Part shown: one piece after another, positions 4,639 through 17,570 of the stretch
How the letters are laid out: each line of letters begins with the position of its first letter
How positions within the stretch are numbered: position 1 is the first letter of the stretch
Source of the DNA: an uncultured Pseudomonadota bacterium
GTDB lineage: Bacteria > Pseudomonadota > Gammaproteobacteria > Methylococcales > Methylomonadaceae
Length of the DNA stretch: 36,983 nucleotides
Reading direction: 5' to 3'
Assembly: GCA_903876445.1 (NCBI GenBank)
Contig: CAIQZX010000154.1
Coordinates: forward strand, 1-36,983
Notes under the pieces: model-generated
What the model saw: only the letters and a program-made list of their open reading frames with translations
The model's database searches: none
Told to the model about the DNA's origin: nothing
Position numbers and translations under genes: made by a program

Positions 4639-5409
4639 TTATTTTTTTATAAGTTGAATTAACGTCGATGTTAATTCGGCGAAATCTTCTGCTCCTCGGC
4701 TTTTCGGTGCATAAAACCGAACAGGCTTTCCAACAGCAAAGGCTTCTGCAAGTTTAATGTCCATGCGAATTCCATTTAACACCCGCAATGCGCCAAACTG
4801 TTTAGTAACTTGTTCTGTCACCTGTCGGTGTTGGCGAACGTTACTAGCTGTCATAACTGGCAAAAAGCCTAGAATTTTCAATTTAGTATTGTCTTTAGAA
4901 ATTACTTTAAATAATACTCGAACTAATTGACGCACACCCTCAAAGGATAAGGGATGCGGTATGTAAGGAACTAATACCCAATGGGCGGCGGATAACGCAT
5001 TCAATAATAAATTATCAAGTGATGGAGGTGTATCAATGATAATTAAATCGAATTGAGAGGTAATTGTTTCATCTGATAACGCACGCGCTAAACATTTTTC
5101 ATCATTTCCACTATTGTGATGCTGGAAATTTTGATTTGCAGGAAGAAGTGAAAGGTTGTCAATTTCCGTTTTGCAAATCGCGTCAACGAGACGAAAAGAC
5201 GGCGCATTAAAAATATCATGAACCGTCGCTTGTCCTGCTGCAATCTTCACTCCTAAACCTACCGCGCAATGCCCTTGTGAATCTAAATCTACAAGCAATA
5301 CACGTTCGCCAGCATTCACAAACTCAGCAGCAAGATTGACAGAAGTTGTCGTTTTTCCCGCTCCACCTTTTCGATTGGTAATAACTAAAACAGGAATAGA
5401 ACAGGTCAT
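4639..5409 (-). CDS. ParA/MinD-like ATPase of the chemosensory operon
   Basis: A deviant Walker-A ATPase of the ParA family, 256 residues. Seen in the sequence: KGGAGKTTTSVNLA near residue 14, A' motif LLVDLDSQGHC and Walker B LIIIDTPPSLD. A TAGGATT ribosome site lies just upstream of the ATG. The preceding response regulator stops 4 bases before this gene starts. No ParB gene or parS-like repeats are adjacent. ParA relatives within chemotaxis operons (ParC of Vibrio, PpfA of Rhodobacter) place or segregate chemosensory arrays, so array positioning is the most likely job. That role is inferred from context. A plasmid-partition origin is less likely, because the gene lies inside a packed operon. 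Confidence 0.85.
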   Translation of the reverse strand: MTCSIPVLVITNRKGGAGKTTTSVNLAAEFVNAGERVLLVDLDSQGHCAVGLGVKIAAGQATVHDIFNAPSFRLVDAICKTEIDNLSLLPANQNFQHHNSGNDEKCLARALSDETITSQFDLIIIDTPPSLDNLLLNALSAAHWVLVPYIPHPLSFEGVRQLVRVLFKVISKDNTKLKILGFLPVMTASNVRQHRQVTEQVTKQFGALRVLNGIRMDIKLAEAFAVGKPVRFYAPKSRGAEDFAELTSTLIQLIKK

Positions 5410-5413
5410 AATC

Positions 5414-5782
5414 CTACACTAACGCGAGTTGAATAGTTTCACGCAATTGCTCACGAGTGAACGGTTTTGACAAAATCCCCTTCACACCTAAAAGTTCAGC
5501 GGATTCTAAATTGAACTCAGCCGTAATTGCACGTCGTCCACCAGAAATAGCAATAATCGCTATTTTTGAATCGCGGCATAACAATTCGGTGATCACTTCA
5601 ATGCCATCTTTATTTGGCATAATAATGTCGGTAATAACAATATCAGGATGGAAATTATTAAAACAACGAATACCTTCCACACCATCATAAGCAGTTTGTA
5701 CTTCATGACCATCGCGCGTTAACATTTGTTTTAATAAATCACGCAATTGTTCTTCGTCATCAATCACTAAAATTTTCGCCAT
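5414..5782 (-). CDS. CheY-like single-domain response regulator
   Basis: A stand-alone receiver domain of 122 residues. The acidic pair is DD in VIDDE (residues 8-9), the predicted phospho-acceptor is D52 in ITDIIMP, and the conserved lysine is in LSKPF. No output domain follows. I chose MAKILV at 5782 over the ATG at 5794 because a GGAG site lies at good distance from the inner start and the protein then begins at the receiver's first strand. It sits between the membrane receptor and the ParA-like gene, so CheA or the operon's histidine kinase may phosphorylate it. Which one cannot be read from sequence. Confidence 0.87.
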   Translation of the reverse strand: MAKILVIDDEEQLRDLLKQMLTRDGHEVQTAYDGVEGIRCFNNFHPDIVITDIIMPNKDGIEVITELLCRDSKIAIIAISGGRRAITAEFNLESAELLGVKGILSKPFTREQLRETIQLALV

Positions 5783-5841
5783 AACCCGCTCCATAAATTC
5801 AAAACTAAAAATAGTAGTTCATTCTCACACAACAGACAACT

Positions 5842-7440
5842 TTAGAAAAGCTCAAATTGAGGTAAATTTTCATCGACGTGCATACTATTGCTGTGAGCAG
5901 CTTCCATATCAAGATAGTCAGAGAGTACATTATTCATTTGGCTAACAAAATCATCGGTAAGAAGCCCGCGCGTATTTGATAATTCTTGAATAAATCGTTC
6001 TAACAATTCATTTCGAGAATGCATTGTATATTTCATCCGCTCTATACGTTGTCTGACAATATCTTGGTATTGAATGCCGCCTAAAATTTCGGAGATGTCT
6101 TGCGACAATTTGATATTGTTTTGATTGATTACCATGAACAGTGTTTTGTAATACTGCTGCATATCCAAATGGTTTTGTTCCAACTTTTGGACTGATTCCA
6201 AGACGTTTGCAGCTTCATCCATTTCTACCATGACTTCTTCTAAGAATTTAAATTTTAAACCCTCTTGAATTGTTTTCCGTGCGTCATTTAAACCCGTTTC
6301 AATCATTTCCGCCGCGTGATTAGAATTAACCGCCAATTTACGCACTTCGTCCGCTACAATTTTAAATCCTAATCCTTTATCACCAGCGTGTGCGGCTTGA
6401 ATCGCGGCATTAACCGCTAAAATATCCGTTTGGAAGCTAATTTCTTTAATGCTATCAACCAAATAACCCAAACCCTCAATAACACCTGTTGCACCTTGAA
6501 GCTGAGATATATCAGAACGAATTTTTTGCGGAATTTCTTGAATAACGTGACCAATTCGCACGATAAAGTCTACGCTATCATTAACGCCGCCATTCATATC
6601 AGAAACAGTTGTAATCGTCGATGTAATGTAATTAACCAAATTATTTGCACTGTGATTCAACGTTTCCATCGATGACACTAAATCAAGCGCATTGTTATTC
6701 GTGTCGTATTCAATAACTTGGAATTGTTCGTAGATATTTTTATCCAGTTCTAAATTTATAGCTACAACCTGATCCAGTTGTCGTAAACTCACAGGGAACA
6801 AGGGTAATTCTTGCATCGATGCCAAACGATTTGATAAATCCAATACTTCTGGTTCCAAACGCAAAATCATCGCTTGCATTTCAGTGACTTGTTTCCGTAA
6901 TGTTTCGTCGATTCTATCGCTGATGTTGAAATAAGCTGTCATCGCATCAGATAAATTTTTGATAAGTGGCAACAAATCGTCTTGAATTTTTTGCAGCCGC
7001 TCATTTTCCTGATTATCTAAAGCAATGCTCAACGCTTGCATTTGATTTGTTAAGGTTATCGAACATTCCGTAAGCGATTTTGATAATTCACGAGTAAAAA
7101 TTTCAACTTCTTTTGCTAATGAGCTTGGATTAACGACAGAATCCGGCGATTCAATTTGAACCGCAATACATTGGAAAATATGATTTAACTTATCATGTGT
7201 TACATCAATTTTTTCTTCAAAATACTTGATGACAGTCAATCTAAATGAAAGTAAAAACCATTGTGAAGTTGACATAATTACCAGTGCCAAACCTAAAAAC
7301 ACCACGTTCAAATAATTGCTTGTTTGGAACGAAAGAAAAACGGCAATCACCATCAGCATCAATAACACGCCATTACTAATCAGTAAAATACGCCCTATTT
7401 CGCTTGTATAGCCAATGGAGTTTTTAAATTTGTTAATCAT
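5842..7440 (-). CDS. Membrane methyl-accepting chemotaxis protein with atypical tip
   Basis: A chemoreceptor of 532 residues. Two hydrophobic segments near the N-terminus (about 18-38 and 45-67) are separated by only a few residues, so there is almost no periplasmic domain. A long coiled-coil region follows. The signalling hairpin tip is at about 340-385 ([19 protein letters not shown] followed by a [15 protein letters not shown] segment). At Tsr trimer-contact positions E385 and R388 this protein has Q and H. The C-terminal part contains a [12 protein letters not shown] stretch seen in some receptor-like proteins; no NWETF-like tether was seen. It lies 3 bases after a CheY-like gene. Sensing is probably cytoplasmic or within the membrane. 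Confidence 0.85.
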
Positions 7441-7443
7441 AAA

Positions 7444-7818
7444 TTATGCACCAGGCAGAACTTGTTTAATGATTTTTAATAAATCTGTCCCTCCAACAGG
7501 TTTAACCAACCAGCCTGTCGCCCCAGCCGCTTTACCTTCGTCACGTTTTCCCTGTTGACTTTCTGTCGTCAAAGTTAAAATGGGCGTAAAACGAAAACCA
7601 GGTAAAGTACGAATTTTTTTAATCAATTCAATCCCGCCCATATTCGGCATATTGATGTCAGTGATAATTAAATCGGGTTTAAATCCTGATGTCAGTTTTG
7701 CCAATGCTTTTACACCATCATCGGCGGTTTCCACTTTGAATTTGTTCATTTCCAAATTTGTTTTTACGCTCATCAACATCGTTACAGAGTCGTCCACGAT
7801 TAAAATTGATTTTGGCAT
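7444..7818 (-). CDS. CheY-like single-domain response regulator
   Basis: A stand-alone receiver of 124 residues: acidic pair in LIVDDS (9-10), predicted phospho-acceptor D54 in ITDINMPNM, and lysine in WLVKPVGG. It closely resembles the divergently encoded regulator at 17937-18320 (shared TMLMS, DINMPNM and GATGWLVKP), so the two are paralogues. The ATG is preceded by AGGAG at 10 bases. A 181-base gap with a possible internal promoter separates it from the STAS gene upstream. This suggests that the genes from here to 3095 can be expressed apart from the front of the operon. Confidence 0.88.
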   Translation of the reverse strand: MPKSILIVDDSVTMLMSVKTNLEMNKFKVETADDGVKALAKLTSGFKPDLIITDINMPNMGGIELIKKIRTLPGFRFTPILTLTTESQQGKRDEGKAAGATGWLVKPVGGTDLLKIIKQVLPGA

Positions 7819-8238: not shown

Positions 8239-10956
8239 CTAAATCAACTCCCGTGGATTTAAAACCATTAACACAGAACCATCACCCAACAATGCTGCAC
8301 CGGAATAACTCGATAATCCGCCCAAAATTCCCGCCATTGGCTTGAGAATAATATCGACCGTTTCGCGGAATTCATCAACTAAAATACCGATATGTTCGCC
8401 ATGTACTCGCACAATTAACGTTGCAAATTCATCATCTTCATTGGGTAATTGCTCTACGCCACGCGCGAGTAATTGATTTAATGACAATAATGGCACAACT
8501 CGTCCGCGCAAAACGGTGGTTTGTTTGTGTTTAATTGTCCGGATTTGTGAACGTGGCACACGCACTGTTTCCACAACCATATCCATCGGCACACCGAAAA
8601 TTTGCTTATTCGATTCAATAATAATTACATTTGTGACAGCCATAGACAGCGGCAACGACAAATGAATGCGTGTGCCTTTTCCAACTTGGCTTTCAATACC
8701 GACCGTTCCATTTACTTTTTCTACAGCAGAACGTACAACATCCATGCCAACACCGCGACCAGATAAATCGGAAATTACTTCAACGGTCGAAAATCCGGCA
8801 GCAAAAATTAAATTGATGGCATCTTGATCGCTGATGCGCTCTAAAGTTGTTTCGTCAATTAACCCTTTTTCATACGCTTTATGTTTAATTATTTTTGGAT
8901 CGATACCTTTGCCATCGTCCATAATTTCAATTAAAACGCGATCTGATTCCTGTGTTGCTCGAATGGTTAATTTACCGGTCGCATTTTTGCCTGCAGCCAA
9001 ACGCACATCCGGTTGTTCTAAACCGTGATCTAAGCTATTTCTAACGATGTGTATCAATGGATCAGATAAGGCTTCAACAATGTTTTTATCGGCTTCGGTA
9101 CTTTCACCTTCTAAAACTAACTCGACTTCTTTGCCTAATTTACGCGAAATATCACGCACCATGCGTGGGAAGCGTTGAAAGATAAATGATACTGGCATCA
9201 TGCGTACTTGCATAATCGTATCTTGCATTTCTTCCGCAACACGATTGATAACCGCATATTGCGCTTTAATTTCTCGTGATAAATCTCGAACACCAAAAAC
9301 GGTTTCGGCACGATTAGCTAAATACGGTAAAGCATTTTTAGCGACGACCATTTCACCAATTAAATTCATAAGACGATCAATTTTATCTTGATCAACTTTT
9401 AATGTTTTTGGTACTACGGTAGAAACTTCATCAACGCGCCGTGCCGTTTTTGCTTCATTGTGAACAACATTTTCGTGGGCATCTTTATGATCACTTATCA
9501 GCGCATTCGGTGTAGATTCGGACGATGTGCTAATTTCTGAAAAATCAGTTTCAACTTCAATTTCAACATCTTGTTCGTTATTCGCTAATGATTCTTCTAA
9601 CCACGTCAGCAATGGTGTCGGCGAATTCTCTGCAAGCGCACGCTCCAATACATTGTCGATATTGCATTCACGATTTACAGCACGATAACAACCCATTAAC
9701 GTTGAAGCAATTGATTTTAAGCGACCCGCCGTCCATGAAAAACCGGATTTATGTGACAAACTTAAAATTTCGCGTTGAGCATTTACGACGACATAAAAAT
9801 TCTGCAATAGCTCATCGTCTTCTTCTGTTTTACGTACATTTACCGAAGTCGTAGCGTGTTCAACCTCTTTAGAGTCTGATCTTTCAACGTGTTCTGCCGG
9901 CGCTGACCAATCTGGAGCGGTTAATGTTTGTAACGATTTTAATAGCGCGTGTTGAGCCGTTTTATTATCGGGTTCATGTTCGAGTAAACGTAATACCCAA
10001 CGTAATACGGATGATGACCATAATTCTGGCGCAGATAATTCCAGCATGGTGTTGATGATCTGTGTCAGAACACTGATATTATTTTTGTTTAACAACGCTA
10101 ACGCATTATCGATAAAGTCAATATCAATAGCATGATCATCTTGATTTCCCGTTGGTCTAACGAACGCTAACGCGGGAATTTCGATACGCTTGATTTCATC
10201 TGGTACATAACGGAATAAATCATCTAATTCTTCAGAAGGTGCCGTAGTAAGCAATTGAAAGACAAGTTGATTACTGTATACGTCCATTTCCGCTAATATC
10301 GGCGCGGTATTATTTAAAATAATGTGCCGCCATAGCGTGTCCGGAACTTGACGCATTAAAAAGAGTGGGTCTTCCCCTTTAAAAAAGCAATCAGACTCTG
10401 GTTTATATTCAACCCAAAATGCGGTTTCGCCTTCGAGCGCATGAAGATACAATTCTTCAGCAACAGATTCTTCCAATTCAAAAATGGGTAATTCTGCTAA
10501 TAATGAATTTACTTCTGATTTTATTTCGGATGAAGTATGTAAATCTGAGTTTGAATCGGCATTTGATTCTGATACTACTAATAGACTTCGTAAAACTTGC
10601 GCGTGTTCCGCCGCAGGTACAGCATGATTTTTACTAATCTCACCTGTTGCTTCGATTTCGTCCATTAACATTCCAACAAAATCCATCGCATCCAATAACT
10701 GATCCGCGAGATCTTGTGAATAGCCGACCCGTCCATTTCGCACAGCATCCATCAAATCTTCACTTGCGTGTAACACGCGAGTCATTTCTGGAAATTCAAA
10801 TAATCCGCTGTTACCTTTTAAAGTATGAACGAAACGGAACAACTCCGTCATTAACGGCGTACTGTTTGGCTCGTCCTCCAATTGCATGAGCTTTTCACCA
10901 ATGCCTTGTAAAAAGTCACGCCCTTCAGACAAAAATTGTTCTAATAGATTATTCAT
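8239..10956 (-). CDS. cheA: Chemotaxis histidine kinase CheA
   Basis: The central kinase of the operon, 905 residues. The N-terminal Hpt domain carries phospho-accepting H44 in FVHTLKGNSG. A long region (about 130-520) follows, with no recognisable CheY-binding P2 domain but several helical acidic stretches, including EGETAFWVEYKP. Then come the dimerisation helices from VDQDKIDRLMNLIGE, the ATPase domain (N box HIVRNSLDHGLEQ near 635, G1 DDGKGID near 679, G2 GRGVGMDVV) and a C-terminal CheW-like domain ending in PRELI. E. coli CheA is about 654 residues, so this is markedly longer because of the middle part. Its ATG overlaps the stop of the upstream CheY-like gene (TAATG), which points to translational coupling. 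Confidence 0.95.
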   Translation of the reverse strand: MNNLLEQFLSEGRDFLQGIGEKLMQLEDEPNSTPLMTELFRFVHTLKGNSGLFEFPEMTRVLHASEDLMDAVRNGRVGYSQDLADQLLDAMDFVGMLMDEIEATGEISKNHAVPAAEHAQVLRSLLVVSESNADSNSDLHTSSEIKSEVNSLLAELPIFELEESVAEELYLHALEGETAFWVEYKPESDCFFKGEDPLFLMRQVPDTLWRHIILNNTAPILAEMDVYSNQLVFQLLTTAPSEELDDLFRYVPDEIKRIEIPALAFVRPTGNQDDHAIDIDFIDNALALLNKNNISVLTQIINTMLELSAPELWSSSVLRWVLRLLEHEPDNKTAQHALLKSLQTLTAPDWSAPAEHVERSDSKEVEHATTSVNVRKTEEDDELLQNFYVVVNAQREILSLSHKSGFSWTAGRLKSIASTLMGCYRAVNRECNIDNVLERALAENSPTPLLTWLEESLANNEQDVEIEVETDFSEISTSSESTPNALISDHKDAHENVVHNEAKTARRVDEVSTVVPKTLKVDQDKIDRLMNLIGEMVVAKNALPYLANRAETVFGVRDLSREIKAQYAVINRVAEEMQDTIMQVRMMPVSFIFQRFPRMVRDISRKLGKEVELVLEGESTEADKNIVEALSDPLIHIVRNSLDHGLEQPDVRLAAGKNATGKLTIRATQESDRVLIEIMDDGKGIDPKIIKHKAYEKGLIDETTLERISDQDAINLIFAAGFSTVEVISDLSGRGVGMDVVRSAVEKVNGTVGIESQVGKGTRIHLSLPLSMAVTNVIIIESNKQIFGVPMDMVVETVRVPRSQIRTIKHKQTTVLRGRVVPLLSLNQLLARGVEQLPNEDDEFATLIVRVHGEHIGILVDEFRETVDIILKPMAGILGGLSSYSGAALLGDGSVLMVLNPRELI

Positions 10957-11327
10957 TACGCGAGATCTCCGAGTAATAATCGTGTATAACTCAATAATTC
11001 ATGAGGTTTAATAGGTTTTGTTAAATATAAATTCGCACCGGCCGCATAACCTAAAGCACGGTCATTTGCCCCCGCTTCAGTTGTTACCATAATTGCCGGC
11101 GTTTGCGACAAATCTTCTTGGCGACGGAATTCTTTTAAAAATCCGTAACCATCTAATTTCGGCATATTGACATCAACAATATACAAATCATAGGGCTTCA
11201 CAAGTGCTTTTTCTAAGGCTTCGATGCCGTTGATGGCTTCATCGACTCGATAACCTGCTGTTTCTAAAATGTTACGATGATACATACGGACAGTTGCGGC
11301 ATCGTCAATGACGAGAATATGTTTCAT
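10956..11327 (-). CDS. CheY-like response regulator directly upstream of cheA
   Basis: A single receiver domain of 123 residues with acidic pair in LVIDDA, predicted phospho-acceptor D52 in IVDVNMPKLDG and lysine in LTKPIKP. Two consecutive ATGs (11330 and 11327) follow an AGGAGG site. The second has the more workable spacing, so it is chosen with low certainty. The Shine-Dalgarno overlaps the cheR stop codon, and this gene's own stop overlaps the cheA ATG, so cheR, this gene and cheA are translationally linked. It is the likeliest direct CheA phosphate acceptor by position alone. Confidence 0.87.
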   Translation of the reverse strand: MKHILVIDDAATVRMYHRNILETAGYRVDEAINGIEALEKALVKPYDLYIVDVNMPKLDGYGFLKEFRRQEDLSQTPAIMVTTEAGANDRALGYAAGANLYLTKPIKPHELLSYTRLLLGDLA

Positions 11328-11335
11328 CATTCCTC

Positions 11336-12166
11336 CTAAGGTTTTTGATAAACAATTGCATCGGGAAATTTACGCACCCGAAATAGCGAAGAAATACGAC
11401 TCATCGATTCAGAATGTCCTAGGCACACAAAACCATTTGGTTTCATCGCATCAAAAAACATTTCTGCCGCTTGCCGACGAGATACATCATCAAAATAAAT
11501 CAATAAATTACGGCAAAAAATAACATCTATATCACGAAAATGACGAACATCGGATGAATCCATGATATTAACGCGACTGAATTTCACCGCTTCACGCAAA
11601 TCATCACAAATTTGATAGGTTTCGTTATGATGATAAAAATACTTCGACAAAATCTTTTTCGGCAAATGCTGCACAGAACGTGCTGAATAACGTCCGCGCT
11701 CTGCCTGTTCAATAATTTTTGTGTCAATATCTGAAGACATAATTTCAACGTCCCATTTATCAATCCCTGACCAGTATTCCAATAAATAAATGGCTATCGA
11801 ATAAGGTTCTTCACCCGATGAAGAAGGTACAGACCAAATCCGAATTGGCGAATCATCTGTTTTGTGTTTGGTAATTTCGTCCAATAAAGAATTCACCAAA
11901 CATTGAAATTGATATTCTTCACGAAAAAAATACGTTTCATTTACGGTCATACAGTTAACTAATAACTGTAATTCATCCCCTGAGGCTTCAAAACGTAACA
12001 TATTGAAGTAAGTGCGAAAATTATCCGTATCCGTTGCTTCAATTCGCTCAATTAAACGTTTATCAACAAAATAACGTTTGGAATGATCAAACATCATTCC
12101 GGTTTTACGATAAAAGAATTCTTTAAATCGTAAAAAATCCCCTTCGCTAATCGTGGCAGTAGACAT
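11336..12166 (-). CDS. cheR: Chemoreceptor methyltransferase CheR
   Basis: Transfers methyl groups from S-adenosylmethionine to receptor glutamates. The 276-residue product has the CheR layout: an N-terminal helical domain (FLRFKEFFYRKTGMMF), then the SAM-binding domain with SSGEEPYSIAIYLLE and the late motif IFCRNLLIYFDD. It lacks the C-terminal pentapeptide-binding extras or TPR repeats of some relatives. The start MSTAT at 12166 is preferred over the ATG at 12187 because it follows the HEAT gene stop by 1 base and has GGGAG 9 bases upstream. It pairs with cheB in the same operon. Confidence 0.93.
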   Translation of the reverse strand: MSTATISEGDFLRFKEFFYRKTGMMFDHSKRYFVDKRLIERIEATDTDNFRTYFNMLRFEASGDELQLLVNCMTVNETYFFREEYQFQCLVNSLLDEITKHKTDDSPIRIWSVPSSSGEEPYSIAIYLLEYWSGIDKWDVEIMSSDIDTKIIEQAERGRYSARSVQHLPKKILSKYFYHHNETYQICDDLREAVKFSRVNIMDSSDVRHFRDIDVIFCRNLLIYFDDVSRRQAAEMFFDAMKPNGFVCLGHSESMSRISSLFRVRKFPDAIVYQKP

Positions 12167-12167
12167 A

Positions 12168-12806
12168 TTACTGCACTCCCTCTTCAATGCGTTTCAGCGT
12201 TAAATCCGCCGAAAAACAAATGTATGGCTCCTCGGCAAATCGGTTCTTTAATTCTTTAATTGCTGGAATAGCTTGCTCTGAACCAACTTCACTTAATAAA
12301 TCCAATGCTGTCGCACACACATTGATATGCGGGTCTTTTTCAATAACACTGATCAGCCATTTTTCAACATTGCTATGTCGCAAGGATTCCAAAATGTTTA
12401 CAGTAAAAATACGCACATCTGAATCGGCATCGTTTAATAGACTTTCAATAATTGATTCAACTTCATTTGGAACTTCTTTTAATACTTCAATTGCTTCGTT
12501 GCGTAATGCGGCATCTTCACTGCGTAAGCAATTTACTACGCCGGAAATTGCTATCTCTCCGCCTAAATGCGCTAATGCACTTAAAATCGCTGTTCGTACA
12601 CTGGCATCTGATTCAATTGATAGACGCGCCACTAATTCGGGACACGCTTCATGTGTATGCGCTAAATCGCGCACCGCCCAGCGTCGAGATGTCGGATTAT
12701 CGGAATCTAATTCGGCAATTAAACCGGCAAAATCACGCTTTACTTCACGGTGGTGTTCGTGGTCTACGGCATCAATTTCCGTAGCTGATTTTTTTATAAA
12801 TGCCAT
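12168..12806 (-). CDS. HEAT-repeat protein between cheB and cheR
   Basis: A 212-residue all-helical protein with about five degenerate HEAT repeats. Typical repeat cores are SRRWAVRDLAH, SVRTAILSALAHLG, ALRNEAIEVLKE and DVRIFTVNILESL, spaced about 30 residues apart. It has no signal peptide, membrane segment or catalytic motif. AGGAGA lies 7 bases before the ATG, and it starts 26 bases after the cheB stop. HEAT solenoids bind partner proteins, so this may be an adaptor or scaffold for CheR, CheB or the receptors. That role is inference from position only. Confidence 0.85.
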   Translation of the reverse strand: MAFIKKSATEIDAVDHEHHREVKRDFAGLIAELDSDNPTSRRWAVRDLAHTHEACPELVARLSIESDASVRTAILSALAHLGGEIAISGVVNCLRSEDAALRNEAIEVLKEVPNEVESIIESLLNDADSDVRIFTVNILESLRHSNVEKWLISVIEKDPHINVCATALDLLSEVGSEQAIPAIKELKNRFAEEPYICFSADLTLKRIEEGVQ

Positions 12807-12832: not shown

Positions 12833-13885
12833 TTATCTAACCCGTGATAATACTTGCTGTGTAATAAGATTGGCAGGCAAAACAACAGTCGCCCCATTTC
12901 GCGCAATCAATTCAGCAGGCATTCCAAAAATGACACAGGATTCTTGACTTTCTGCAATGGTGTACCCACCTCGTTTTCTAATTTCTGCGAAAGCATCTGC
13001 ACCGTCATAACCCATCCCTGTTAACATAACGGCAATTATTTTTGTTGGGTTATAGTGTTCCAACGCCGATCTGCCGAGTAACTCTACCGATGGATGCCAA
13101 ACAAATTCACTACTTTCTGGTTTCGGTATCACAGTAGCAACGCCTGAACGCCTTGTAATAACCATGTCCGCGCCACCTTTACCGATATAAATCACGCCGG
13201 CTTCTAACGGCATAGGACGACTTGCTTCAACAACTTGCAATTCACATAACGTATTTAAGCGATTTGCAAAAGGTGCCGTGAAACTTGCTGGCATGTGTTG
13301 CGCGACCAAAATAGGATGCGGAAAATTAGCAGGAAATAACGGTAATACTTCTTCCAATGTTCCTGGTCCACCTGTAGAGACACCGATAATTACAATGCCG
13401 TCACCAGGTGGACGAGGAGCAGGATGTACAAGCGGACGATTTGCAACGGCGGATTGTGCAGACGATGGAGTCGCAAGTCTCTTCGCTTTAACATTTGCTC
13501 TCACCGCTGCACGAACTTTTCGTACCAATTCTTTTTTTACGACATCTAGGGATAAAGAAACCGTGCCACCAGGTTTCGCAATGTAATCCACCGCGCCTAA
13601 TGCAAGAGCTTCAAATGTTGCTAACGCGCCCTGTTCAGTCAATGAGGATACCATGACGATAGGAACGGGACGTTGCGCCATCATGACGGATAATGCCGTT
13701 AATCCATCCATTTCTGGCATGTTAATATCCAATGTCACAACATCCGGTTGAAAACGTAAATTTTCTTCAACCGCATCCTTTCCATTACGCGCTAAACAAA
13801 TTTCAAAATCATCTTGTTCTGCAAATACTAAATTAAGTTGTCTCCGCATTAACGCCGAGTCATCAACAATAAGTAGTTTAATCAT
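12833..13885 (-). CDS. cheB: Receptor methylesterase CheB
   Basis: Removes receptor methyl groups and deamidates glutamines. The 350-residue product has an N-terminal receiver (DD in LIVDDS, D53 in TLDINMPEMDG, lysine in IAKPGG), a linker at about 120-165, then the esterase domain. Catalytic regions are visible: serine in GVSTGGPG, histidine in AQHMPASFTAPFA and aspartate in LTGMGYDGADA. It precedes the HEAT gene and cheR. The presence of both CheB and CheR shows that the array uses methylation-based adaptation. Confidence 0.95.
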   Translation of the reverse strand: MIKLLIVDDSALMRRQLNLVFAEQDDFEICLARNGKDAVEENLRFQPDVVTLDINMPEMDGLTALSVMMAQRPVPIVMVSSLTEQGALATFEALALGAVDYIAKPGGTVSLSLDVVKKELVRKVRAAVRANVKAKRLATPSSAQSAVANRPLVHPAPRPPGDGIVIIGVSTGGPGTLEEVLPLFPANFPHPILVAQHMPASFTAPFANRLNTLCELQVVEASRPMPLEAGVIYIGKGGADMVITRRSGVATVIPKPESSEFVWHPSVELLGRSALEHYNPTKIIAVMLTGMGYDGADAFAEIRKRGGYTIAESQESCVIFGMPAELIARNGATVVLPANLITQQVLSRVR

Positions 13886-13918: not shown

Positions 13919-15508
13919 TTATCCTGCAAATACTGCTAAACCTTCTCGATCCTTTGCTTCTAGCAAATTTGCAGGCTCAATAAGCAAAATCAACCGTTTT
14001 TGTTTTTCTAAGTTTGCTACACGAGCAATCAATTTCACTTGTTCAGTTGATAAGCCTGGTGCAGGTTCAATCGCCGATTTTGGAACTTTTAACACTTCAA
14101 CAACGGAATCAACAATAAAACCCGTGCGGACACCATCAAATAAAAACACCATAATGCGTTGTTGTTCACAGCGTTCTGTCGAAGGCAAGCCCAAACGACG
14201 ACGTTGGTCAATAACGGGTAAAACTGCTCCCCGTAAATTGATAACACCTTCAACAAATCCCGGTGCTTTAGGAACGTGTGTTAATTCATCTGGCACACGC
14301 ACAATTTCTTGTACGCTATCAATCGGCACGCCAAATTCTTCACGATCCAAACGGAACACGACCATTTGTTCATCATCTTCGATAATCGCTCTTTCTATAC
14401 CGTTACTCATAACATCATCCTGCATTTTTTCTACCGCGCTTAACGCATCACGCATCGCACTGTGTTGGAACATATTTTCAGCCGAAATAATAGATACCAA
14501 TCTTCTTCCATCATCCAATCGACAAATTTCTGTGATTTCAGACATATCACCATCGCGTGTTAGCATCGCAGGCATTGGATCAACACTGTTTTTTGATACG
14601 CGCAACACTTCATTTACGGCATCCATCACCACGCCTACCGACGCACCATTAACTGAAATGACAACAATACGGCTGTGGCTATCGGCTTCATGGAAAGGCA
14701 AGCCAAACATTCGACGCAAACTCACCAATGGCAGCATACGATTTCGCAACGTCATCACGCCTAAAACATGGGATTCAGAATGCGGAACATGAATAATTTG
14801 CTCTGGAATTTGAACAATTTCCTGCACATCGCTAATACTGATTGCATATTCTTGTCCAGCAACGGAAAAACTTACCAATTGCAATTCATCACTAAAGCCA
14901 TTTTCATTATCTTCGTCTTCTTTTTCTAAACGTGTTTGCATAGCATTATTATTGCTGCTTGCTAATTTAGAGATGTCTGTAAATTCGTTAGCAATCAGCT
15001 TGCCAAAATCCAACACCATTGTCATCGCGTAACCGCCGACATCTTTAATTAGCCCCGTCAACAAATCGGTGTCAACAGTACCGCTAATTGAACTTACATC
15101 TTCGATTTTGCTGACTTCTACACCAACAACGCTAGCAACACGATCTACGACAAAGCCCAGCGGCTGACCTAAATCAATGACAACCGCTCGAGTAGAATCG
15201 GTATATTCCTCTTCCGGAAAGCCAAAAATACGACGTAACGAAATAATCGGTAATACCTTGCCACGCAAATTCGCTAAACCTTCTAGCGTATCGGGTGCAA
15301 GTGGTACGCGCACCACAGAGGGTACGCGAATAATTTCTTGAACGGGTGCCATGTCAACGGCAAAAATTTCACCGCCGGCAATAAAAGTCACAAATTGCCG
15401 TATTCCCGACTCTTCTTCTGATTCAGGCGGCATCACATCGCCAACTGGCATTTGTAACACATCAGCATCAACATCCATTTGCTGTGTTTTAATAACTTCG
15501 TCAGTCAT
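13919..15508 (-). CDS. Triple CheW-domain coupling protein
   Basis: A 529-residue protein built of three CheW domains, at about 36-175, 208-348 and 380-518, joined by acidic linkers. Each repeats the CheW pattern VQEI(I/V)x(V/I)P ... HVP or RVP, then an LRG-like loop and LPxIxxRR. The NLRG receptor/kinase contact loop is intact in domains 1 and 3 (NLRGKVLP, NLRGAVLP) but is TLRNRMLP in domain 2. A GGGAGG site lies 6 bases before the ATG. E. coli CheW is a single domain of 167 residues, and no separate CheW gene is present here, so this protein probably couples receptors to CheA and may cross-link the array. It starts 33 bases after the double-tip receptor stop. Confidence 0.9.
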   Translation of the reverse strand: MTDEVIKTQQMDVDADVLQMPVGDVMPPESEEESGIRQFVTFIAGGEIFAVDMAPVQEIIRVPSVVRVPLAPDTLEGLANLRGKVLPIISLRRIFGFPEEEYTDSTRAVVIDLGQPLGFVVDRVASVVGVEVSKIEDVSSISGTVDTDLLTGLIKDVGGYAMTMVLDFGKLIANEFTDISKLASSNNNAMQTRLEKEDEDNENGFSDELQLVSFSVAGQEYAISISDVQEIVQIPEQIIHVPHSESHVLGVMTLRNRMLPLVSLRRMFGLPFHEADSHSRIVVISVNGASVGVVMDAVNEVLRVSKNSVDPMPAMLTRDGDMSEITEICRLDDGRRLVSIISAENMFQHSAMRDALSAVEKMQDDVMSNGIERAIIEDDEQMVVFRLDREEFGVPIDSVQEIVRVPDELTHVPKAPGFVEGVINLRGAVLPVIDQRRRLGLPSTERCEQQRIMVFLFDGVRTGFIVDSVVEVLKVPKSAIEPAPGLSTEQVKLIARVANLEKQKRLILLIEPANLLEAKDREGLAVFAG

Positions 15509-15541: not shown

Positions 15542-17461
15542 TTATGAACTTTGTAATTCATCAGCCAATGAAGCAATTTCTTCAATTGCAGCAGAAAGTT
15601 CTTCTGCGCCTTTTGATTGTTGGGTAGCTGCTGACGCGGCTTCTGTTGCGGCTTTTTCAGATTCTTGAGATGCAGCGGCGATTTGATTAACGCCAACTTG
15701 AACTTGACTTAATGCCGCTGTAATTTCATTCGATGCGGCAGAAATGTTTTGTGAAGCCTGTTCAACTTCATCAATATCAGATTCAATTTGTACTAAGCCT
15801 GATGTGGTTGCTTTTGATTTTTCAACTTCAGATTGTGCGCTTGTGACAATTTCTGCCAAATCTCTGCCGACGATAGCAATTTGGTCTTGAACCGCTTTAA
15901 CTAAATCTTTGATGCGATCTGCATTTTCAGCCGAATCATGCGCTAAATTACGAATGTCAGTTGCTACGACAACGAAACCTTTTCCGAATTCACCAGCGCG
16001 AGCCGCCTCAATCGAACCATTCACAGCAAGCATATTTGTTTGAATAGAGACTGTTGCAATCGCATCAACAATTTTATCAATCCGACGTGATAACAATTCT
16101 AAATCAGTAACTTGTTTGATGCTTTTTTGCGTGCTAGTCATTGATTCGTTAATGCCTGAAATAAGAGCATCAACCGCTTTTTTGTTAGTACCTAATAAGG
16201 TTTGCATTTCGCGCACGTTATCAACGTTTTTCGACCCTTTTTCTTGAGCGATAACTAACCCTTTTTGGATTTGATTGATTCCTGCTGCAGATTCTTCCGA
16301 AGCGGCAGCCGCAGCGCGTGCGCTATCACGAATTAAAGAAATTGCCGACGTAATTTGCACACTTGAACGGTTGATTTCTTGTACTGCTGCAGATAATTCT
16401 TCCGCTGATGCCGCAACTTCTTCAGCATTTTTAGTGATGTCTGTTGATGTTTTCAAATCTTCAGCAAGACCGGCTAATGCTTGAGCAAGTTGCTCACATT
16501 CAGCTAGCGCAGTGGCTTGTTCTGCAACAGTTTTAGAACCTTCTTCTGCGGCGGCCGCTTGACCTTCTGCTGCGTTTGCAATCGCTTCTGAACCTTGAAG
16601 AGCTTGAGCAGCAGCCGTAGCAGATTGTTGAGAACCTGTTGCAATATCTGAAATACCTTTAATGACTTCGGTAGTCAAAATACGAATTCTTTCTAACTGC
16701 TCACTAATAATGCGTCCGTTTTCAACTTCAGCTTCAACAGTTTTTGCTGAAGCGTTAATGCCATCAGCAATGGCTTTAACTTCTTTTTGAATTTGCCCAA
16801 CCAATTCTTGAATTTGTTTTGCACTTTTTTCAGAGGTTTCCGCTAATGTTCTGACTTCATCCGCCACAACCGCAAAACCTTTACCATGTTGTCCAGCCCG
16901 TGCTGCTTCAATCGCGGCATTTAACGCCAATAAATTGGTTTGGTCAGCAATTCGCGCCACGGCTTTCACTATGTCGCCAATTGTTGCCGCTTGCGCTTCT
17001 AATTCATTAACCATTTCAACCGAAACAGATTGTCTTTTTGCCGCTAATCCAACGTTATAAACTAACGATGAAACTTCTTTACTGACATTTACAATCGTAT
17101 TGCCAGCGTTTGAGCCTTTAGTTTGACTAACCATTGCGTTTTGCAATTGACGTTGAATTGAACCGATTACCAATCTTAATGCGGCTGTCGATTCTTCCGC
17201 TGCACCTGATGCTTCTTCTGCACCGGCTGCAATTTGATCTGTTGCGCGTTTCAATTCTTCAGCCGCTGATGCCGATTCATTTACACCTGCCGATAATTGC
17301 GCGACAGCCGCTGCAATACGTTCTGCCGCTTGTTGTTGCTTTGCAAAAGTACGCGCTTTTTTACGTTGCGCTTCGACATCATGAGCTGAAACACCACCAA
17401 GTGATGAACGACCTACATCTTTAGATGAAGAAGTAGTTATAGGTTTTTTAATAAGTGCCAT
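15542..17461 (-). CDS. Soluble chemoreceptor with two signalling tips
   Basis: A 639-residue, alanine/glutamate-rich coiled-coil chemoreceptor with no membrane segment. Two complete hairpin tips are visible: the first near 170-205 ([19 protein letters not shown]) and the second near 470-505 ([19 protein letters not shown]). Equivalent residues are exactly 300 apart, so the protein is a tandem of two receptor hairpins. Tip 1 is canonical; tip 2 has diverged (AVNGS for [15 protein letters not shown] for [10 protein letters not shown]). The start MALIKK at 17461 is the first ATG; a TTG lies 15 bases upstream. It is the first gene of the operon. The cytoplasmic location and double tip recall Vibrio cholerae DosM, a double-signalling-domain receptor that stabilises soluble arrays. 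Signal and ligand are unknown. Confidence 0.88.
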
Positions 17462-17570
17462 AAGAGTTACCTTCAATTTTAAAGTTGGAAAACGAAAAAC
17501 TATTTTTTAACGCGCTTGCTGTATCGACCAGGAAAATAAATAATTTAGGCTGACACAACGATTTTTTTAC

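Follow-up and report, generated by a model that had tools for sequence, protein, structure and literature searches.

A DosM-type receptor with two conserved, unlike signalling tips in an F9 chemosensory cluster of a Methylomonadaceae bacterium, and the possible packing of its two hairpins

The window analyzed here is a stretch of 36,983 nucleotides from an uncultured Pseudomonadota bacterium (Gammaproteobacteria; Methylococcales; Methylomonadaceae), contig CAIQZX010000154.1 of assembly GCA_903876445.1. It carries a chemosensory gene cluster on its minus strand, in which the following features were identified, the basis of each being given in brackets.

15542-17461, minus strand: DosM-type double signalling domain receptor, 639 aa (ORF and start, two MCPsignal stretches, full-length homologues)
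17444-17461, minus strand: conserved N-terminal peptide MALIKK of the receptor, residues 1-6 (motif comparison of homologues)
16835-16954, minus strand: tip 1 of the receptor, canonical, residues 170-209 (sequence and alignment of homologues)
16433-16453, minus strand: central junction of the receptor, residues 337-343 (predicted helix break at 339-341, midpoint between the tips, spacing changes)
15935-16054, minus strand: tip 2 of the receptor, conserved variant, residues 470-509 (sequence and alignment of homologues)
13919-15508, minus strand: triple CheW (CheW3), with domains at about 14987-15397, 14462-14881 and 13955-14368 (Pfam)
12833-13885, minus strand: CheB with receiver (Pfam)
12168-12806, minus strand: HEAT-repeat protein of the cluster (Pfam)
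11336-12187, minus strand: CheR (Pfam)
10956-11330, minus strand: response regulator (Pfam)
8239-10956, minus strand: CheA with Hpt, dimerisation, ATPase and CheW-like domains (Pfam)
7444-7818, minus strand: response regulator (Pfam)
5842-7440, minus strand: short MCP-like protein with a partial MCPsignal match, profile positions 37-131 (ORF and Pfam)
5414-5794, minus strand: response regulator (Pfam)
4639-5409, minus strand: ParA-like ATPase, candidate array-positioning protein (domain match)

By Pfam, the full set of cheA, cheY, cheB and cheR is present in the cluster, and a gene for a PAS histidine kinase lies downstream of the ParA-like ATPase on the same strand. A ParA homologue encoded in che operons, PpfA, is reported to be required for partitioning the cytoplasmic clusters of R. 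sphaeroides (PMC2829493). The short MCP-like protein has a tip without the usual glutamate and arginine and an N-terminal hydrophobic stretch, the latter judged by eye; it is possibly a partner receptor of the array.

At 2.8 Mb in 223 contigs, the host genome also encodes FliM, a methane/ammonia monooxygenase subunit and two more CheA dimerisation domains, of which one is weak. It is thus a probable methanotroph that has flagellar genes and further chemosensory systems. It contains 19 MCPsignal matches, namely the two in the double-tip receptor, one in the short MCP-like protein, one on contig C188 and 15 others. Each of these 15 receptors has a single tip starting I[AS]FQTN, three of them being without a predicted membrane segment. 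The tip pattern fits neither the short MCP-like protein nor the one on C188. One receptor of this genome, of 825 residues and without a predicted membrane segment (locus L119, contig C16), possesses AGQHG in its tip like tip 1 of the double-tip receptor. Its contig also bears CheW and CheA matches, and the protein is a candidate co-receptor.

The receptor is encoded on the minus strand, its ORF opening with an ATG at 17461 and closing with a stop at 15542; on the plus strand the frame is interrupted by stops. A TTG at 17476 provides an alternative start; the ATG is favoured since homologues mostly open with M-A-[LI]-[VI]-K-K at that point. For family comparisons, 131 DosM rows of 33-75% identity were aligned. 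These rows are not independent, 106 being left at 97% identity and 85 at 90%, and the alignment omits L086 (split ORF), L088 (590 aa) and the partial L143, L144, L145 and L150. The N-terminal pattern M.[LI][VI][KR][KRT] occurs in 115 of the 131 rows (in L162 the annotated start lies later). In DosM the peptide MAL[IV]KK leads into a variable linker of low complexity and then into a basic helix, QRKKARTLAKQQQA; the peptide resembles a docking element sited at the receptor's tail end. A tie between this peptide and ParA was considered and is unsupported, as the peptide occurs in loci both with and without ParA.

In silico analysis with Pfam shows MCPsignal as the only match to the protein, in two stretches (127 and 108 bits; 2.3e-66 for the whole protein), with no sensory domain among the matches. 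No membrane segment rises above 1.7 in a 19-residue hydropathy window. Core tip matches lie at residues 176-185 and 476-485, with QTN at 174 and 474, giving an offset of 300. When the protein is compared with itself without gaps, the best offset is again 300 (25.7% identity, with 15.6% at the runner-up offset), and this peak indicates a gap-free internal duplication rather than chance. The original prediction, which was of a membrane-free protein bearing two full tips 300 residues apart, each flanked by arms of about 150 residues, is borne out in all of these points, including the self-alignment that it had proposed as a check.

Components of F9 chemosensory systems are described as having architectures found in no other class, namely two signalling domains in tandem in DosM and three CheW domains in CheW3; full F9 sets were counted in 64 of 2781 species (PMC9321776). 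In V. cholerae, DosM (VC1403) lies beside the concatenated triple CheW VC1402, with VC1397 as the CheA (PMC7534058), and the genes of its cluster I are listed as cheY1, cheA1, cheY2, cheR1, cheB1 and cheW. These tags and this list agree with the gene order of the relatives of the window. The V. cholerae protein is likewise soluble with two signalling domains, adjoins a triple CheW and has CheA in its cluster, a likeness drawn from its published description. The Che2 cluster of R. centenum has a tripartite CheW and an MCP (PMC2890560); this orthologous cluster has a known effect, governing flagella biosynthesis (PMC2890560, PMC6943060).

MiST counts one F9 pathway in Azospirillum sp. B510 (PMC6943060). 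A plasmid locus of this strain, the only triple-CheW locus fetched there, agrees in gene order and encodes a three-domain CheW and a double-tip receptor of 44% identity; we infer it to be the F9 locus counted by MiST. Across the genus, eight loci have the double tip, with a spacing of 300 in seven and 304 in B510. Their receptors are 44-46% identical to that of the window, their gene order matches as far as fetched, and a CheC-type gene lies upstream where this region was fetched.

At the level of the family, the receptor is almost certainly DosM, the scaffold of the F9 system, which would hold a cytoplasmic CheA/CheW3 baseplate and is without a sensing domain. Its resemblance to DosM, already suggested from the sequence, holds by the two MCPsignal stretches, the CheW3 neighbour and the F9 gene set. 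What the window carries is a full F9 cluster of ordinary type, whose mark, the combination of DosM with CheW3, is already published. The suggestion that the pairing may be new does not stand, as it is in print for VC1402/VC1403 of V. cholerae, for the F9 class and for Che2 of R. centenum (PMC7534058, PMC9321776, PMC2890560).

When 84,980 genomes were scanned for homologues, 306 stretches were confirmed. The best 80 of these 306, which were those analyzed, are 62-75% identical to DosM in the best segment, over nearly the whole length, and by record title include representatives of Methylococcaceae, Betaproteobacteria, Chromatiaceae, deltaproteobacterial lines and Acidobacteria, with none titled Vibrio among these 80. 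A triple CheW lies 3′ of the receptor on the same strand in 76 of the 80 loci and the other four are contig ends, so that the association with multi-CheW proteins, whose tabulation had been proposed, is found throughout wherever the contig continues. Among the loci with enough room, CheB is present in 70/72, the HEAT-repeat protein in 69/71, CheR in 68/70 and CheA in 63/64, while ParA was found in 16 of the 36 with 10 kb of room. The gene order common to related loci is DosM-CheW3-CheB-HEAT-CheR-RR-CheA-RR. This cluster is also present in Methylotuvimicrobium buryatense 5G (L037).

A strong DosM match (E up to 1e-100) is present in 9 of 398 genomes of the phylum, and a match with E up to 1e-90 in 30 of 301 genomes of the order, the host genome being counted in both. 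At the latter threshold, matches were found in 4 of 385 genomes of another class and 2 of 295 of another order, in samples centred on known carriers. The host genus has two DosM lineages, one 44-45% (L146-L149) and the other 72-74% (L132-L135, L138, L139, L141) identical to the DosM of the window, a pattern suggesting that F9 clusters were exchanged whole. Of the F9-type loci, 16 (L092, L093, L095-L097, L154-L164) sit on large plasmids, in Alphaproteobacteria and in Sphaerotilus, a location consistent with the horizontal transfer reported for the class. Locus L012 has DosM and CheW3 with no recognised CheB to CheA genes within 10 kb, and in L056 the HEAT and CheR genes are unrecognised; both are possibly partial F9 sets. 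Two further loci were set aside: that of Aeromonas (L091), a match to a single CheW only, has no bearing on the DosM pairing, and that of Deferribacter (L094) has none on DosM, its receptors matching over one hairpin.

The distance from tip to tip is 300 residues in 129 of the 131 aligned rows (104 of 106 at 97% identity). The exceptions are Novosphingobium L093 (299, with a one-residue deletion at 342) and Azospirillum B510 L154 (304, with a four-residue insertion at 337, seven other Azospirillum rows being without it). Both fall midway between the tips, the only such site in the rows examined. Ten further named DosM genes, added after the junction indels had been noticed, show no net change in spacing and speak neither for nor against. 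In L106, compensating gaps appear between 238 and 296 in one alignment and are absent from another, with a spacing of 300 in both. Glycine or proline occurs at the junction in 16 of 25 divergent rows, a frequency equalled or exceeded in 162 of the 507 other windows along the protein; being no commoner there than in many of these, it was dropped as a marker of a turn.

The two tips differ in the same manner throughout the family. Among 121 rows, the tip 1 residues L180, A182, E202 and V203 are found in 121, 121, 119 and 121 respectively, and the tip 2 residues V480, G482, D502 and I503 in 120, 121, 121 and 121. Conservation is equal in the two tips (window means of 0.97-0.98 in both). In the ten rows below 50% identity, the tip 1s are 73% alike and the tip 2s 61% alike, while the two tips within one protein are 45% alike. 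As each type of tip is more alike across proteins than the two are within one, duplication and specialisation would precede the spread of the family. All 92 rows compared keep a glutamate and an arginine in both tips, at 185/188 and at 485/488; in Tsr numbering these are the trimer-contact residues E385 and R388. The divergence of tip 2 had been described from the window alone (NGS for NAA, ATDIRN for ADEVRT); those letters are correct and, judged from the alignment, tip 2 is a fixed, conserved variant rather than the result of drift. Its departure from the canonical letters could also be read as that of a decaying pseudo-tip which has lost the binding of CheA and CheW. Such decay is very improbable for a tip that is as well conserved as tip 1 and has E485 and R488 in 92/92 rows.

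AlphaFold2 modelling of the full-length receptor with 43 sequences (the window and 42 loci) predicts helices at 26-338 and 342-638 with a sole break at 339-341 (mean pLDDT 87.9, pTM 0.60). The same break is predicted for residues 195-485 alone with 61 sequences (pTM 0.54). The full-length model matches the cytoplasmic domain of the T. maritima receptor (2ch7) over its whole hairpin, with a TM of 0.83-0.86 by target length over 298 columns at 24% identity; 2ch7 has one hairpin per chain. Since the predicted helix string is unbroken at the tips while the model matches the 2ch7 hairpin, the string is a poor guide to turns. A Foldseek search with the central segment returned antiparallel hairpins, including 2ch7_B (TM 0.52, rmsd 7.2 over 298 columns, 10% identity), SMC 5nnv_B (rmsd 5.7 over 231 columns), the MukB elbow and Rad50. 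These scores are modest, with no TM above 0.58 by query length among the 50 rows listed, 0.32 in the top row and many rmsd values above 20. A straight helix of 291 residues should not match a hairpin over its full length, and the predicted fold-back of the central segment is thus read from the Foldseek scores. The AlphaFold2 runs are of single chains, in which couplings between chains may be satisfied in cis.

Covariation between the hairpins was assessed in 120 rows (about 47 effective sequences), for pairs at equal distance from the tips, against a null simulated on the same tree with the same column profiles and no coupling. Mutual information places the bands within and between hairpins above all 60 simulations; the flanking diagonals show a slight rise, a level attained in 1 of 60 simulations, and the flanking antidiagonals show none. 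Regularised inverse-covariance scores (150 simulations) are 0.194 within hairpins (z 9.2), 0.222 for C1-N2 (z 7.3) and 0.204 for N1-C2 (z 6.8) between hairpins, and 0.178 for the parallel arms N1-N2 and C1-C2 (z 7.9). The controls give 0.082 for non-contact offsets in the same helix (z 2.6) and -0.005 for pairs 15-40 residues out of layer, and the same-helix signal peaks at offsets 1, 3, 4 and 7, as expected. In 100 bootstraps the same-helix non-contact score was exceeded by C1-N2 in 100%, N1-C2 in 100% and the parallel arms in 98%.

With the 102 closer rows, the scores are 0.114 within hairpins, 0.133 for C1-N2, 0.150 for N1-C2 and 0.076 for the parallel arms, the background in this set being 0.061. 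When the data are split at random into two halves, the parallel-arm score is barely over background (0.160 vs 0.134; 0.061 vs 0.043). Pairs of core residues show no enrichment over surface pairs in this covariation. The null treats sites as independent, and constraints shared from outside could also contribute to the excess over it. As C1-N2 and N1-C2 are non-equivalent in the duplication, concerted evolution of the two halves provides no explanation.

These results bear on the arrangement that had been proposed from the window alone, a long rod with a tip at each end, taken here as a parallel extended rod in which two chains lie in register and place the tip 1 pair and the tip 2 pair in different, unlike baseplates. 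The difference between the tips, which is consistent across the family, agrees with it, as does the report of V. cholerae DosM as an extended rod that carries a signalling domain at each end (PMC7534058). A rod of this kind is nevertheless distinctly unlikely. No contact between hairpin 1 and hairpin 2 is expected in it, yet their covariation equals the level within hairpins; a helix break and hairpin are predicted at its midpoint, and a four-residue insertion has been accepted exactly there. A parallel rod with two different ends accounts for neither the junction evidence nor the covariation, so that of the original prediction the unlike tips stand and the rod is weakened.

The covariation itself fits a folding back of the chain and an antiparallel dimer alike, and as a property of aligned sequences it does not separate cis from trans. 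In the antiparallel case the extended dimer would span both baseplates, hairpin 1 lying on hairpin 2 of the other chain, with both ends alike, which is compatible with the covariation, the conserved tip difference and the published spanning rod. A turn at 339-341 would be unnecessary in such a dimer, and the single-chain AlphaFold2 model folds the central segment back, as judged from its Foldseek matches; we regard this arrangement as rather unlikely.

Together, the helix break, the junction indels, the central hairpin matches and the inter-hairpin covariation favour the packing of hairpin 1 on hairpin 2. The two hairpins of DosM probably pack on each other in this way, each unit showing one tip 1 and one tip 2. 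For the step beyond this, that the chain turns back at 339-341, forms a natural single-chain receptor dimer and brings its two tips to the same baseplate, the chances appear about even. The account as a whole, with packed hairpins and most likely a single-chain dimer, is given a probability of roughly 0.55. Folding in cis explains why the helix breaks at 339-341, why the indels lie where they do and why the arms must be equal. The original prediction had regarded a fold-back into one four-helix hairpin with a buried tip as telling against it; the model comes close to such a fold-back, and burial is not required, as the tips would lie side by side as in an ordinary dimer.

In a folded DosM, the fixed tip difference would represent a division of labour between a subunit at the trimer axis and a subunit facing CheA/CheW, and the invariant spacing of 300 would keep both tips level within one baseplate. 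Two folded layers would meet tail to tail, giving a sandwich with two baseplates. Judging from the gene set, input may come from other receptors and output may pass from CheA to the response regulators of the cluster. In this full form, a single-chain dimer in place of a spanning rod, with its tips fixed for the axis and the periphery of the trimer and its layers stacked tail to tail, the proposal is tentative and falls somewhat short of an even chance.

The distance between baseplates was estimated with standard values for the helix rise and the arm length of Tar. The calculation, 2 x 148 residues x 0.148 nm minus an offset that was set from the 31 nm Tar sandwich (PMC3964821), comes to roughly 36 nm whether a rod spans the baseplates or two layers are stacked, compared with the 35 nm reported for V. 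cholerae, and baseplate spacing was therefore set aside as a means of telling the two apart.

Engineered single-chain Tsr~Tsr receptors are reported to signal, the two subunits of a dimer sitting at different places in the trimer, and tandem soluble MCPs have already been likened to such receptors (PMC4692393). The idea of a natural single-chain dimer is therefore not new, and the addition made here is the sequence evidence on DosM. Like DosM, Tsr~Tsr has two signalling hairpins per chain acting as one dimer; it differs in being artificial and membrane-bound, in its equal subunits and in needing a linker of at least 22 residues for near-normal function. Counting against the folded form, linkers of 9 residues or fewer locked the kinase on, though the linker there must pass the HAMP domain (PMC4692393). 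In the covered parts of the literature, including PMC7184735, PMC11940527, PMC9178275 and PMC6479200, no discussion of hairpin-to-hairpin packing or of tip asymmetry in DosM was found.

The packing of hairpin 1 on hairpin 2, which the sequence evidence favours, disagrees with the published rod model of V. cholerae DosM, where a homology model extended across both baseplates was fitted into a subtomogram average (PMC7534058). The gene of the window is itself one more member of a described class. What its family exposes is a conflict between the likening of tandem soluble receptors to single-chain dimers (PMC4692393) and the description of DosM as rods joining two baseplates (PMC7534058), and the tip difference, the single site of length change and the hairpin covariation provide sequence-level grounds for choosing between the two models. 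Should the folded form be true, the published model of the F9 array must change. One chain would then separate two receptor roles which are not mutable apart in homodimers, and subunit roles that are common to both halves of the E. coli homodimer would be split by sequence in the DosM family.
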